From contig JAHIDZ010000018.1 of assembly GCA_018901755.1 (NCBI GenBank), positions 1 through 34,817 of the forward strand: a stretch of 34,817 nucleotides of DNA. Direction: 5' to 3'. Within the stretch, counting starts at the first letter, position 1. Every line of letters begins with the position of its first letter. A model generated the notes under the pieces. It was not told the origin of the DNA. It did no database searches and saw only the letters and a program-made list of their open reading frames with translations. Origin of the DNA: Nanobdellota archaeon. GTDB taxonomy: Archaea; Aenigmatarchaeota; Aenigmatarchaeia; Aenigmatarchaeales; Aenigmatarchaeaceae. Shown one piece after another: positions 10,908 through 34,817 of the stretch. Position numbers and translations under genes: made by a program.

Positions 10908-13900
10908 ATGGTTTTTGACGTTGAAATCAAAGAAGGCTTAATGAGGATGAATTGTATTGGATCTATCTTTGGATTCACTCTAGAAGATTCTGACGTTATC
11001 ATGGCAAGAGTAATCGACTCATTAATATCAAATAAAAAAGTTACAGACATTATTCTTGCTGAAACAAGAGAATATGAATATGATTTCTCTCAAACAGAAT
11101 TATTAAAAGAAATAGCAGCGACAATTACAAAAATAGTAAAAGAAAAAAAATTAGTATCAATAAAAAATATTGGTCTAAAAACTTGTGATAAATATATTCC
11201 ACAATGGTATTCTTGGATTCAGGATCTTGTATCATTGCAAATGCGAGGAGACCCGATAGGGGCTTATTTAACACTAACTAGAGAGATAAGACATCTAAAA
11301 ACAAAAATGAACCTGTCTGAAGAATTTGGGCAATGTGCTGGATTTTTCTTAGAAAATTGTTTACTGCCAATACAAGAAATTTTAGAAGGTTGTAAATTAA
11401 TACAAATTGCAAAACCAAATTTCGTAGCCTACCACGTAGGTGATAGAAGCATTTATAGAAAAATATTCAAACCATCAATTCGTCCTAATTTCATGTATAC
11501 GAAATATATGGCGCAAAGACCAGATGGAGAAATAATTGACAAATATAAAATTGGTGATACAGATGTTGAGATATACAAGATACCTGGAGAAGTAAGGCAT
11601 ATATATCATATCATTCCTCCAGAGTTTAGATTAAAAGAAAATGAATATGTTCTGCTTGACGGAGCAAGAAGAATACTTGAAGAAAGAAGACCAAAGGAAT
11701 TAGAAATAAATGATCAAGAAAAAATGAGAGAACTCTTCTATACTTTGTCTGTAGACCTACTTAGAGATTTAGCCGAGCAGATGAATATTGTTATTGATGA
11801 AGAACAGATTAAAAAATTAGCAAGCATTCTTACAAGATATACAGCCGGATTAGGTATAATAGAATTATTGTTAGCTGATAGTAAAATACAAGATGTTTAC
11901 ATAAACGCTCCTTTAGGAAACATACCAATTTATGTTGGTCATCAAGATTATGAAGAATGTCAAACCAATTTAGTTCCTACACAATCAGATGCAGATCGTT
12001 GGGCAACAAGATTCAAACTTTTATCAGGACGACCTTTAGATGAAGCAAATCCAGTTTTAGATACTGAAGTTATGGTACCTGGTGGTGTAGCTAGAATCGC
12101 AGCAATAAATCCTAAATTATCACCAGATGGTTTAGGTTTTGCGTTAAGAAGACATCGTTACAAACCTTGGACATTTCCACTATTCATAAAAGAAGGATAC
12201 TTTGACCCATTGTTTGGTGGATTAATGTGGTTCATGGCATCTTATGGTAGAACATTCCTAATAGCTGGAACAAGATCTAGCGGTAAAACAAGTTTCTTAG
12301 CAAGCATGATGTTACAGATACTTCCTTATTATAGAATTATTACAGTAGAAGATAGTGTAACAGGAGACAGTAGGCTAGTAATAAAAAGAAATGGAAAATT
12401 CGAAAAAACTGAAATTGGTAAGCTGATAGATTCTCATATAGAAAAATATGGATGTATAAATAAATTCGGAAGAGAAATTGTTAATAATTTTGAAGACATA
12501 AAAATATTTTCTGTTGATAGAGAGGGTAAGACAAAATTATCAGACGTATCTGCGATGATAAGACATAAAGTAAAGAAAGATATATATGAAGTAGAAACAA
12601 CGACAGGAAGAAAGATAAAGGTTACCGGCGATCATTCGTTATTTACTGTTGGCGATGATAATGTTCTAAAAGAAATAAAAACAAATGAATTAAATACTGA
12701 TAGTTTTATAGCTGTTCCTAGAAATTTAAAATTTGATGCGGGCAAAAAAGATGAAATAGATTTATTGGAACATATGGATTCATTAGATAAATATTATGTT
12801 TCAGGTTATGGAATCAAAAATTTAATAGAATCCAGATGGAGTGAAATAAAAAGCATTTCTTCAGAATTAGATTATTCTAAATCTATGATATGCGCATGGA
12901 AAAGAAGCGCTATGCTTCCTGTTAAAATATTCAAAAGACTGAATGCTAAAGATATAAGTTTAGAATTTAAACCTAAATCTGGAGGGAACTCTATTAAAAG
13001 TAAAATAGAATTGGATGAATATATGCTGACGTTAATTGGTTTATGGCTGGCCGATGGTTGCTATGACAAAAAGTCTATTATAATCTCAGTTGTCTCTGAA
13101 GAAGAAAGAGACGTTGTTAGAAACATTGCCAAGCGTTTCGGGCTTCAGGTTAAGATGCATTCTGACAAAGTATCGCTTATAATAAACTCAGTTATTCTGA
13201 AAGACGTGTTTGTAAACGCACTTGGATTGAAAGGCGATGCCTATACAAAGGAAATACCTAGCTGGATATTTGATCTATCCTGCAGACAGAAGTCTTATGT
13301 CCTCAAAGGATTATTTTCAGGAGATGGATGTGCGGGAAAGAAAGAGATAGCAATACCTTTAAGCTCAGAAAAACTGCTTTATGATATTCAGACGCTTCTT
13401 TTGTCTTATGATGTGATACTTAGAAAATCCAACGAAAGAAAAACAGACGGAACGTTTAATGCTTCAATATCAACTGTAAAATCTTTCAAGAATTTTAAGG
13501 AGAACATAGGATTTTTACAAAAATACAAAAATGATAAATTGGCATTATTATGCTCAAAAATATCTACTCACGATTCAACAGATATCATACCTTTGTCAGC
13601 AGGAGTTAAAAACGAGTTAAATTTGGTATGCAACGATTTTAACAAACATGATTACATCACAAGGGAAAATAACATTGGAAGAGAACATCTAAATAAATTA
13701 ATAAACGGTATAGATTTGCACAAAATACCAAATCCTGTGAGATTTTTACCTTTTACTGATATATTGTGGGACAGGATAAAAAACATTAAAAAAATAAATT
13801 GCGCAGAAGAATACGTCTATGATATCTCAGTCCCAGAAAATGAGAACTTTGTTTGCGAGAATATACTAGCCCATAATACTCTAGAACTTCCAGTTGAAGC

Positions 13901-14663
13901 ACTAAGAAAAATAGGTTATAATATTCAAAGAATGAAATCACGTTCTGTTATTACAAAAATAGAAACAGAATTGCCTGCCGATGAAGCATTACGAACCGCG
14001 TTGCGTTTAGGTGATTCTTGCATGTTTATCGGTGAAGTTAGATCGGTTGAAGCTAAAGCATTATACGAAGCTATGCGTATCGGCGCGCTGGCTAACACGG
14101 TAGCAGGTACTATACACGGTGAATCTGCTTATGGAGTATTTGATAGAGTTGTTAATGATCTTGGTGTACCACCTACTTCGTTTAAAGCAACAGATATTGT
14201 TGTGGTTTGTAATAGACTAAAATCGCAGGATGGAATACACACTAGAAGGAGAATTGTTGAAGTAACTGAAGTAAGAAAACATTGGAAAACAGATCCACAA
14301 GACGAGGGCGGTTTTGTTAATTTAATGTCATATTCATCAGAAACAGATGGATTAAAACCAACAGACACTTTGTTAAATGGAGAATCTTATATTTTAAATG
14401 AACTTGCAAATAGAGTTCCTGGATGGGCTGGTAGATGGAATTTGGTTTGGGATAACATACAACTAAGAGCAAAAATATTAGAATCAATTGTTAGAATATC
14501 TAAAGAGAAAAATATGCCAGAGTTGTTAGAAGCTGAAACTGTAGTTAAATCAAATCAAATGTTTAGTGTATTGTGTGATAAGAGTAATACTGAAACAGGA
14601 TCAATTGATAATAAACGAGTATATGATGAATGGTTAGAATGGTTCAATAAACAGGTTGTCTAA
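10908..14663 (+). CDS. Type IV filament/secretion ATPase (FlaI/GspE/VirB11 superfamily) with an intein
   Basis: The precursor has 1251 residues; removal of the 508-residue intein leaves 743. Residues 1 to about 250 are an extra N-terminal region beyond the usual FlaI length. The ATPase part begins near YHIIPPEFRLKE and runs through LLADSKIQDVYINAP. Walker A is GTRSSGKT at 454-461, followed by YYRIITVED (480-482). After the intein come TLELPV, the Walker B-like SCMFIGEVRS (around 1035), and the His-box region AGTIHGESAYGVFDRV. The hexameric family powers pilus or archaellum assembly at the cytoplasmic membrane. The platform gene follows with no gap. ATG 10908 is taken as the start, but ATG 10941 is possible. 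Whether the cargo is a filament or secreted protein is unknown. Confidence 0.88.
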   Translation: MVFDVEIKEGLMRMNCIGSIFGFTLEDSDVIMARVIDSLISNKKVTDIILAETREYEYDFSQTELLKEIAATITKIVKEKKLVSIKNIGLKTCDKYIPQWYSWIQDLVSLQMRGDPIGAYLTLTREIRHLKTKMNLSEEFGQCAGFFLENCLLPIQEILEGCKLIQIAKPNFVAYHVGDRSIYRKIFKPSIRPNFMYTKYMAQRPDGEIIDKYKIGDTDVEIYKIPGEVRHIYHIIPPEFRLKENEYVLLDGARRILEERRPKELEINDQEKMRELFYTLSVDLLRDLAEQMNIVIDEEQIKKLASILTRYTAGLGIIELLLADSKIQDVYINAPLGNIPIYVGHQDYEECQTNLVPTQSDADRWATRFKLLSGRPLDEANPVLDTEVMVPGGVARIAAINPKLSPDGLGFALRRHRYKPWTFPLFIKEGYFDPLFGGLMWFMASYGRTFLIAGTRSSGKTSFLASMMLQILPYYRIITVEDSVTGDSRLVIKRNGKFEKTEIGKLIDSHIEKYGCINKFGREIVNNFEDIKIFSVDREGKTKLSDVSAMIRHKVKKDIYEVETTTGRKIKVTGDHSLFTVGDDNVLKEIKTNELNTDSFIAVPRNLKFDAGKKDEIDLLEHMDSLDKYYVSGYGIKNLIESRWSEIKSISSELDYSKSMICAWKRSAMLPVKIFKRLNAKDISLEFKPKSGGNSIKSKIELDEYMLTLIGLWLADGCYDKKSIIISVVSEEERDVVRNIAKRFGLQVKMHSDKVSLIINSVILKDVFVNALGLKGDAYTKEIPSWIFDLSCRQKSYVLKGLFSGDGCAGKKEIAIPLSSEKLLYDIQTLLLSYDVILRKSNERKTDGTFNASISTVKSFKNFKENIGFLQKYKNDKLALLCSKISTHDSTDIIPLSAGVKNELNLVCNDFNKHDYITRENNIGREHLNKLINGIDLHKIPNPVRFLPFTDILWDRIKNIKKINCAEEYVYDISVPENENFVCENILAHNTLELPVEALRKIGYNIQRMKSRSVITKIETELPADEALRTALRLGDSCMFIGEVRSVEAKALYEAMRIGALANTVAGTIHGESAYGVFDRVVNDLGVPPTSFKATDIVVVCNRLKSQDGIHTRRRIVEVTEVRKHWKTDPQDEGGFVNLMSYSSETDGLKPTDTLLNGESYILNELANRVPGWAGRWNLVWDNIQLRAKILESIVRISKEKNMPELLEAETVVKSNQMFSVLCDKSNTETGSIDNKRVYDEWLEWFNKQVV
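12354..13877 (+). mobile_element. Intein with LAGLIDADG (DOD) homing endonuclease
   Basis: This in-frame insertion of 508 codons has the standard splicing blocks. Ser1 lies in SVTGDSRLVI (block A). TGDHSLF follows (block B, His at intein residue 94). The two endonuclease motifs are LIGLWLADGC (from residue 227) and LKGLFSGDGC (Asp at about 324). The C-terminal part has VYDISVPENENFVC (block F) and ILAHN followed by extein Thr (block G). Removal joins RIITVED to TLELPVEAL, rebuilding the conserved acidic loop of the ATPase. All catalytic residues appear intact, so splicing and homing may both be active. The endonuclease stretch around 13020-13350 looks richer in G/C at third positions than the surrounding gene, hinting at transfer. 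Confidence 0.92.
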
Positions 14664-33479: not shown

Positions 33480-34289
33480 GTGACAGACACAGTGACGTCA
33501 GTAATAGATACATTCAGTGATAATAATAAGGATAAATTGGCATACATCTTGGGAGCACTCTATGGAGATGGGCACTTTAATTTAAATTCTCACAGAATTC
33601 AATTTGGCAGCTGTGATATAGAATTTATAAGATGTTTAGTTAATTACATTTCTGACATTTTCAATATTAAATTGAATATTAGTGTTATAAAACTTTCAAA
33701 GAAAAATAAAAACCATAGAGACTATTATTACATTTCTTCATCAAGAAAATTATATGATATGATCTCGCAATTTAATTATAAATATCTGAAAAGAATCCCG
33801 GATTTCATTACCAATGGAAGAATGTCAATTAGGGCTGCTTTTCTTGGTGGTGTTTTTGACGCAGAAGGTAATGTTGATATTCATATAATAAAAAGCAGAA
33901 ATGAGATACAAAGACACGTTAGATGTTATTCTAACGATAAGAATTTCTTGGAAAAGATAAAAATTCTGCTATTAAACTTAGAAATAAAATCGTGTATAAA
34001 CAGAAGCAAAGGAAAAAATTATTGCTTAACCATATGGAATCATAAAGGTCTTGTAAATTTTGAAAAATATGTCAATTTTAATATTATCAGAAAGAAATTA
34101 GAATTAAGAAAGGCGATTGAAAGTTATAAACAAATACAAACACAGTGGAACAAAGAAACTTATAATGCGGTAATAAATTTAAGAAATTGCGGATTTGGAG
34201 CGACAAATATACAGAAAAAACTTTTAATAAAAATTCCAAAACCGACAATAGAATCATGGATATACAAAGATGTAAAAATAACGAGGTAG
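33480..34289 (+). CDS. LAGLIDADG homing endonuclease with C-terminal HTH
   Basis: The 269-residue protein has two LAGLIDADG motifs, YILGALYGDG (about 22-31) and FLGGVFDAEG (about 120-129), each with its catalytic acidic residue, so a monomeric active nuclease is plausible. Residues about 225-265 form a helix-turn-helix (NAVINLRNCGFGATNIQKKL, then PTIESWIY), likely for added DNA recognition. It starts at GTG 33480, 6 nt after GAGGTGA. It stands free, not in an intein, and ends 5 nt before alba. Its first residues (MTDTVT) and the DNA around its start resemble those of alba (MTDATD), as if it had captured an alba-like 5' end. Confidence 0.85.
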   Translation: MTDTVTSVIDTFSDNNKDKLAYILGALYGDGHFNLNSHRIQFGSCDIEFIRCLVNYISDIFNIKLNISVIKLSKKNKNHRDYYYISSSRKLYDMISQFNYKYLKRIPDFITNGRMSIRAAFLGGVFDAEGNVDIHIIKSRNEIQRHVRCYSNDKNFLEKIKILLLNLEIKSCINRSKGKNYCLTIWNHKGLVNFEKYVNFNIIRKKLELRKAIESYKQIQTQWNKETYNAVINLRNCGFGATNIQKKLLIKIPKPTIESWIYKDVKITR

Positions 34290-34294
34290 ATAAA

Positions 34295-34609
34295 ATGACA
34301 GATGCAACAGATAACATAATTTTCGTTGGGAAAAAAAGGCTGTAAGTTCCATGCTTTAGTCATTTCTGACCAGCGATGAGTTATGTATTAGCTTGCGTAA
34401 CTCAGTTCAACGAGGGTAATGAAAACATTATCCTAAAAGCTAGAGGACGAGCAATTTCGCACGCAGTCGATGTAGCAGAAATAGTTAAAAACAAATTCGT
34501 AATGAATACAGAAATTAAAAGTGTAAACATCGGAACTGAACAAGTTACAGGCGAACAAGGAGAGAAGCTAAATGTTTCAAGCATAGAAATTATACTTGGT
34601 AAAAAATGA
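34295..34609 (+). CDS. alba: Alba chromatin/RNA-binding protein, gene interrupted by an mRNA intron
   Basis: Exon 1 is 34295-34335 and exon 2 is 34369-34609; joined they encode 93 residues, the normal Alba size. Exon 1 gives [14 protein letters not shown]. Exon 2 gives [31 protein letters not shown] and [11 protein letters not shown], all family hallmarks. The join falls inside the codon of the second Lys of GKKP, the loop matching Lys16/Lys17 of Sulfolobus Alba, which contacts DNA and is acetylation-regulated. Unspliced, translation stops at TAA 34343-34345. An ORF caller would report only a headless protein from 34376. GAGGT precedes ATG 34295. It is probably transcribed with the endonuclease. 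Loss of function instead of splicing is the alternative, but the exact frame restoration argues against it. Confidence 0.9.
34336..34368 (+). other. 33-nt bulge-helix-bulge intron in alba mRNA
   Basis: The outer helix of 7 bp pairs 34323-34329 with 34370-34376 (one G-U). The central helix of 4 bp pairs GAAA 34330-34333 with TTTC 34363-34366. The 3-nt bulges are AAA 34334-34336 and TGA 34367-34369. The inner helix pairs GGCTG 34338-34342 with TAGTC 34357-34361 (two G-U) after one A-A mismatch, closing a 14-nt loop. Cutting after the second base of each bulge, as archaeal splicing endonuclease does, removes 33 nt and restores the reading frame. Confidence 0.85.
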
Positions 34610-34667: not shown

Positions 34668-34728
34668 TATCAAACTATACTTTATTGTACGGGCTCATGG
34701 CTCAACCCGGTAGAGCACTCGCTTTGCA

Positions 34729-34744
34729 AGATCAAATCCAAAAT
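34729..34744 (+). other. tRNA intron 1, position 37/38, 16 nt
   Basis: The anticodon stem is the outer helix. Central helix TTTG 34723-34726 pairs with CAAA 34739-34742. The bulges are CAA 34727-34729 and ATA 34743-34745. A 3-bp inner helix GAT/ATC closes a 3-nt loop. The canonical BHB cut after the second bulge base gives a 7-nt anticodon loop. Confidence 0.88.
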
Positions 34745-34766
34745 AGCGAGGGGTTGGGGGTTCAAA

Positions 34767-34798
34767 TCTTAATTGTATATTTTTACATTAGGTGAAAT
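34767..34798 (+). other. tRNA intron 2, position 59/60 in the T loop, 32 nt
   Basis: The T stem is the outer helix. Central helix TTCA 34761-34764 pairs with TGAA 34793-34796. The bulges are AAT 34765-34767 and ATT 34797-34799. Inner helix CTTAAT 34768-34773 pairs with ATTAGG 34787-34792 (one G-U). Cutting after the second bulge base rebuilds the standard loop TTCAAAT. Confidence 0.88.
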
Positions 34799-34817
34799 TC
34801 CCCCTGAGTCCACCATA

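Follow-up and report, generated by a model that had tools for sequence, protein, structure and literature searches.

The tRNA-Ala(UGC) gene at the 3' end of the window, the whole stretch of 34,817 nucleotides that was analysed, is broken at two places, one of them in the T loop. The gene also lies at an assembly fork, one branch of which leads into an integrative element. Taken together, the structural and comparative evidence makes it highly probable that this is a functional, twice-interrupted tRNA-Ala(UGC), spliced at strict bulge-helix-bulge (BHB) motifs, and that a 25.5-kb element uses its last exon as attachment site.

Structure and conservation of the interrupted gene

An intron-aware parse placed the tRNA-Ala(UGC) gene at window positions 34691-34815 of the forward strand, within the last 127 bases, and divided it into three exons on that strand. 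Exon 1 (34691..34728) covers tRNA positions 1-37. It is followed by intron 1 (34729..34744), 16 nt in length and located at position 37/38, with a central helix TTTG/CAAA and an inner helix of 3 bp. Exon 2 (34745..34766) covers positions 38-59 and thereby holds the 5' strand of the T stem plus TTCAAA of the T loop. Intron 2 (34767..34798; 32 nt) interrupts the T loop at position 59/60; its central helix is TTCA/TGAA, its outer helix is the T stem and its inner hairpin is CTTAAT/ATTAGG. Exon 3 (34799..34812) covers positions 60-73 and is followed by a genome-encoded CCA end (34813..34815), beyond which there are two bases only, because the contig ends there. Both introns are enclosed in strict BHB motifs, with all four central pairs Watson-Crick, bulges of 3 nt on each side and outer helices of five pairs, provided by the anticodon stem (intron 1) and the T stem (intron 2). 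Removal of the introns results in a complete cloverleaf with the identity elements G3-U70 and anticodon TGC (UGC). The predicted spliced tRNA, GGGCTCATGGCTCAACCCGGTAGAGCACTCGCTTTGCAAGCGAGGGGTTGGGGGTTCAAATCCCCCTGAGTCCA, is 74 nt long, or 77 nt with the encoded CCA. An initial annotation had described two BHB introns with a 4-bp central helix and 3-nt bulges, one of them at 59/60, and a perfect cloverleaf with G3-U70 after their removal. The parse agrees with this description to the base, and the mature length of 77 nt and the intron lengths of 16 and 32 nt were reproduced by computation.

The full parse scored 29.6, compared to 26.2 for the best of 600 dinucleotide shuffles, none of which equalled it, and two strict BHB motifs occurred in 1 of the 600. 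RNA folding of the unspliced stretch gave -40.2 kcal/mol (z -2.83). ARAGORN found no tRNA in the window and neither did Rfam at its cut-off; the RF00005 model assigns the gene 14.7 bits, about half of the cut-off of 29. Poor visibility to ordinary finders had been anticipated in the initial annotation, rightly so, as both programs miss the gene. Inventories of tRNAs that rely on such finders are therefore likely to be incomplete in this lineage. The T-loop intron had also been called noncanonical. Its placement is indeed uncommon, but it is not new, since position 59/60 is on a published list of archaeal noncanonical tRNA intron positions (PMC4090602). The introns reported there share the position and the BHB motif with the present one and are likewise combined with a canonical 37/38 intron; what differs is the host, Candidatus Aenigmatarchaeota, and the tRNA, tRNA-Ala(UGC). 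No published 59/60 or T-loop intron in DPANN/Aenigmarchaeota was found in the open-access literature searched.

The gene might be a decayed copy, the T-loop insert being a mutation and another gene supplying tRNA-Ala(UGC). The very low scores from standard finders would fit such a reading, as would the frequent occurrence of tRNA fragments at integration sites. However, every stem is intact, and no second Ala-UGC gene was present among the tRNAs found in this genome (G000; 835 kb, 21 contigs, ~91% complete). The inventory of 34 tRNA matches, in which the other alanine tRNAs are Ala-CGC and Ala-GGC, was built from RF00005 matches and patterns and may miss further genes with a T-loop intron. Two other identical copies of tRNA-Ala(UGC) were considered as extra genes and rejected, being the same 141-bp assembly overlap (see below). 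Furthermore, in a genome of the same family but another genus (G005) this tRNA likewise follows Alba, and both introns are kept. Its exons are identical to those of G000 at 73 of 74 bases, while the introns have diverged in sequence with their pairing preserved. The 59/60 intron of G005 is 31 nt long and of another sequence, and its inner helix still pairs by means of one-sided changes. This retention of exons and of pairing while the introns drift makes a decayed copy extremely improbable, and by comparative evidence tRNA-Ala(UGC) is predicted to be a working gene.

Proposed splicing of the two introns

In the predicted fold of the precursor RNA, a strict BHB surrounds each intron. It is built on the anticodon stem for intron 1, and for intron 2 on the T stem together with the opening bases of the T loop. 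By analogy with the known archaeal pathway, the splicing endonuclease would cut both bulges and a ligase would join the exons; transcription of the tRNA-Ala(UGC) precursor, cleavage by EndA and ligation are all presumed steps. One EndA gene was detected in the genome (PF01974, 178-180 aa, L031:1273-1809), the closest named relatives of which are from Candidatus Aenigmatarchaeota. A second EndA subunit was not detected in the ~91% complete genome. The EndA contig ends just after the gene, the matched domain stopping 54 bases from the contig end, and a second subunit may be encoded in sequence that the assembly lacks. The enzyme of the family may be a homotetramer (alpha4-type) or may work with an undetected partner. 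The Tyr and His residues of the catalytic triad are kept, but Ala occupies the position of the catalytic Lys156 of Methanocaldococcus, leaving the Tyr-His-Lys triad incomplete. This EndA is consequently a candidate for the splicing enzyme. The same Ala was found in 28 of the 30 EndA sequences examined across the class.

It had been stated in the initial annotation that the T-loop intron needs a broad-specificity splicing endonuclease, and a relaxed enzyme of the heterotetrameric or epsilon2 kind can be considered for both introns. Archaea that have such enzymes show the greatest wealth of noncanonical introns (PMC4090602), order-level relatives possess tandem EndA genes of which one lacks the catalytic His, and weaker motifs are apparently used by other tRNAs of the genome. 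On the other hand, both tRNA-Ala(UGC) motifs are strict, and a single type of EndA gene was seen in each of five genomes of the family (G000, G001, G002, G005 and G006). Recognition by archaeal endonucleases is described as directed at local secondary structure (PMC12397907). With strict motifs, recognition of local structure and one EndA gene found, the need for a broad-specificity enzyme is unsupported, and such a requirement is considered rather unlikely.

An integrative element and its probable attachment site

Within tRNA-Ala(UGC) the window runs out at an assembly fork, where a branch representing the empty chromosome (contig C4) and a branch representing a 25.5-kb element (contig C1) diverge. 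A stretch of 141 bp (34677..34817) is common to three contig ends, namely the end of the window contig (C2) and the first 141 bp of C1 and of C4. An overlap of this length presumably reflects a fork in a k=141 assembly graph. Beyond the fork, C4 is ordinary chromosome, and the empty site is given by the contig overlap from the end of C2 to the start of C4. C1 instead continues, ~60 nt after the tRNA, with a gene for a 417-aa tyrosine recombinase (PF00589, E 4.3e-20). Near its far end C1 contains CCCTGAGTCCACCATA, followed by 110 bases of C4, and it stops ~15 bases short of merging with C4. The same 16-bp core occurs at 34802..34817 of the forward strand, and the direct repeat on C1 marks the right border of the element. 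Because the fork is shared and the repeated core is followed by C4 sequence, the distance between the two cores, and hence the length of the element, is 25,503 bp, and the assembly contains the site in its empty as well as its occupied form. The contig overlaps thus suggest that part of the population carries the element in tRNA-Ala(UGC).

The 16-bp core lies wholly in the 3' exon; its start falls in the 3' strand of the T stem, beyond the T-loop intron. The core spans CCA and the 3' strand of the acceptor stem. The tyrosine recombinase would recombine within it, and on integration the copy carried by the element would restore the acceptor end of the tRNA; activity of the recombinase on the core is deduced from this arrangement. 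Integration would act on the DNA of the last exon, independent of RNA splicing. With a core that does not extend beyond the 3' exon, the T-loop intron gives the gene no shield from integration. The element carries a second recombinase as well as defence-like genes (contig G000:C1, L062 11349-18585), one of them for an SNF2-type helicase similar to DrmD/BrxH. A type IIG-like restriction-modification protein (restriction-methyltransferase) and a PDC-S18 candidate defence protein are also encoded.

The present element was considered as carrier of the T-loop intron and rejected: its attachment sequence holds no intron, and the T-loop intron lies outside the core and is not brought by this element. 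An integrating element, possibly an earlier one, might still have introduced the intron together with a foreign tRNA body, following the model for Caldiarchaeum (PMC3293823). At the same locus G001, G003 and G007 contain a single other intron of 12 to 15 nt and G002 contains none; since these four genomes lack the T-loop intron there, it must have been gained or lost within the family. Their tRNA body differs from that of G000 and G005, and this includes G001, which belongs to the same genus as G000 yet lacks the T-loop intron. These differences, and the use of the site by an integrase, would be in line with an element-borne intron. The intron-free attachment sequence of the present element argues against it, as does G005, which has the intron while no recombinase match was found at its tRNA-Ala(UGC) site. 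On balance, this origin of the T-loop intron appears improbable.

Comparable loci have been described. SNJ2 type elements have att sites of 14 nt and short 3'-end cores (PMC8371274). As in those elements, a tyrosine recombinase gene lies here beside a restored tRNA, and the att core is short and located at the end that accepts the amino acid. The target tRNA in our case, however, has a T-loop intron and holds the core within its last exon, and the likeness noted here is one of layout. In Thaumarchaeota, 10 cases of elements integrated in intron-containing tRNA genes are known (PMC6563490). These share with the present case the integration into an intron-holding tRNA gene, but belong to another lineage; here, the assembly contains the empty as well as the occupied allele, and one of the introns interrupts the T loop. 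The tRNA-Thr locus of Caldiarchaeum (PMC3293823) resembles our locus in population heterogeneity, noncanonical introns and a recombinase gene. There the element was proposed to bring the intron, whereas here the core of the element is without one. Within the literature searched, three points are new: the lineage, how frequent T-loop introns are in it, and the finding of a tRNA with a T-loop intron both empty and occupied.

T-loop introns across the class and neighbouring genes

A protective role of introns in tRNA genes, against elements that integrate there, has been proposed (Randau and Soll 2008, as cited in PMC3293823). A tRNA gene with two introns that exists both empty and occupied in a natural population, with the core just past the T-loop intron, makes this idea testable at one locus, and the occurrence of T-loop introns throughout the class makes it testable across many genomes. 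A pattern for 59/60 introns had matches in 73 of 145 class genomes, with 147 matches in total versus 12 for the reversed pattern, and 19 of the 31 stretches examined parse as whole tRNAs of many isotypes. A pattern for longer T-loop introns had matches in 59 genomes. Similar inserts occur at many places in some genomes, for example G052 with 13 long-intron matches, a situation reminiscent of the spread of introns in Thermoproteales (PMC4033280). The many long T-loop introns of G052, G037, G113 and G017 are related in sequence, and this relatedness suggests intron spread between tRNA genes. G000 itself appears rich in noncanonical introns, parsed in addition to those at 37/38: at 30/31 in several tRNAs, at 29/30, and at 9/10 in tRNA-Lys(CUU). 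The tRNAs that appear to carry unusual introns are located at L012, L026 and L145 (contigs C4 and C20), some with uncertain parses; introns of several tRNAs found with RF00005 are left unclaimed because of poor parses.

Homologous recombinase genes in the class adjoin a parsed tRNA on the same strand in 25 of 67 cases, usually at a distance of 40 to 90 nt downstream of it. Six of these 25 tRNAs carry a 59/60 intron, and the T-arm pattern is present in a seventh tRNA, that of G063. In G037, the end of a tRNA-Gly with a T-loop intron has a second copy 13 kb away; the 14-bp core, CGGCCATCGCACCA, is again confined to the 3' exon. A direct repeat was also sought at the tRNA-Tyr site of G068 and was not found. 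By simple pattern counts, T-loop introns were present at 5 of 21 recombinase-adjacent tRNAs, compared to 2.6 expected from the rates of their own genomes (P ~0.08). This enrichment is not significant, and there is no sign of protection by T-loop introns. It could be imagined that introns and integrative elements of Aenigmatarchaeota compete for tRNA genes, T-loop introns breaking the conserved T arm and recombinases having moved in response to short cores within the final exon. The counts are compatible both with such a contest and with plain chance, and the contest is judged quite improbable.

The Alba gene upstream of tRNA-Ala(UGC) (34295-34609, forward strand) contains a 33-nt insert near its start (34336-34368). 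The insert has an in-frame stop and a BHB-like fold with central GAAA/TTTC, and its removal restores the protein sequence; it appears to be a short BHB intron. Inserts at the same codon occur in G005 (33 nt) and G007 (34 nt), with different sequences and paired central helices, and Alba of G001, from the same genus as G000, has no insert. No published Alba intron was found in the open-access literature searched; according to a paper of 2009 (PMC2738675), cbf5 alone had confirmed splicing at that time. A LAGLIDADG_3 ORF (33480-34289, forward strand) ends five bases upstream of the Alba start, and the end of a similar ORF precedes Alba in G007, not in G005. Elsewhere in the window, a type II/IV secretion-family ATPase gene (T2SSE; 10908-14663, forward strand) carries an interrupting intein that has a LAGLIDADG domain, and the gene is surrounded by many genes whose products have pilin-like N termini.
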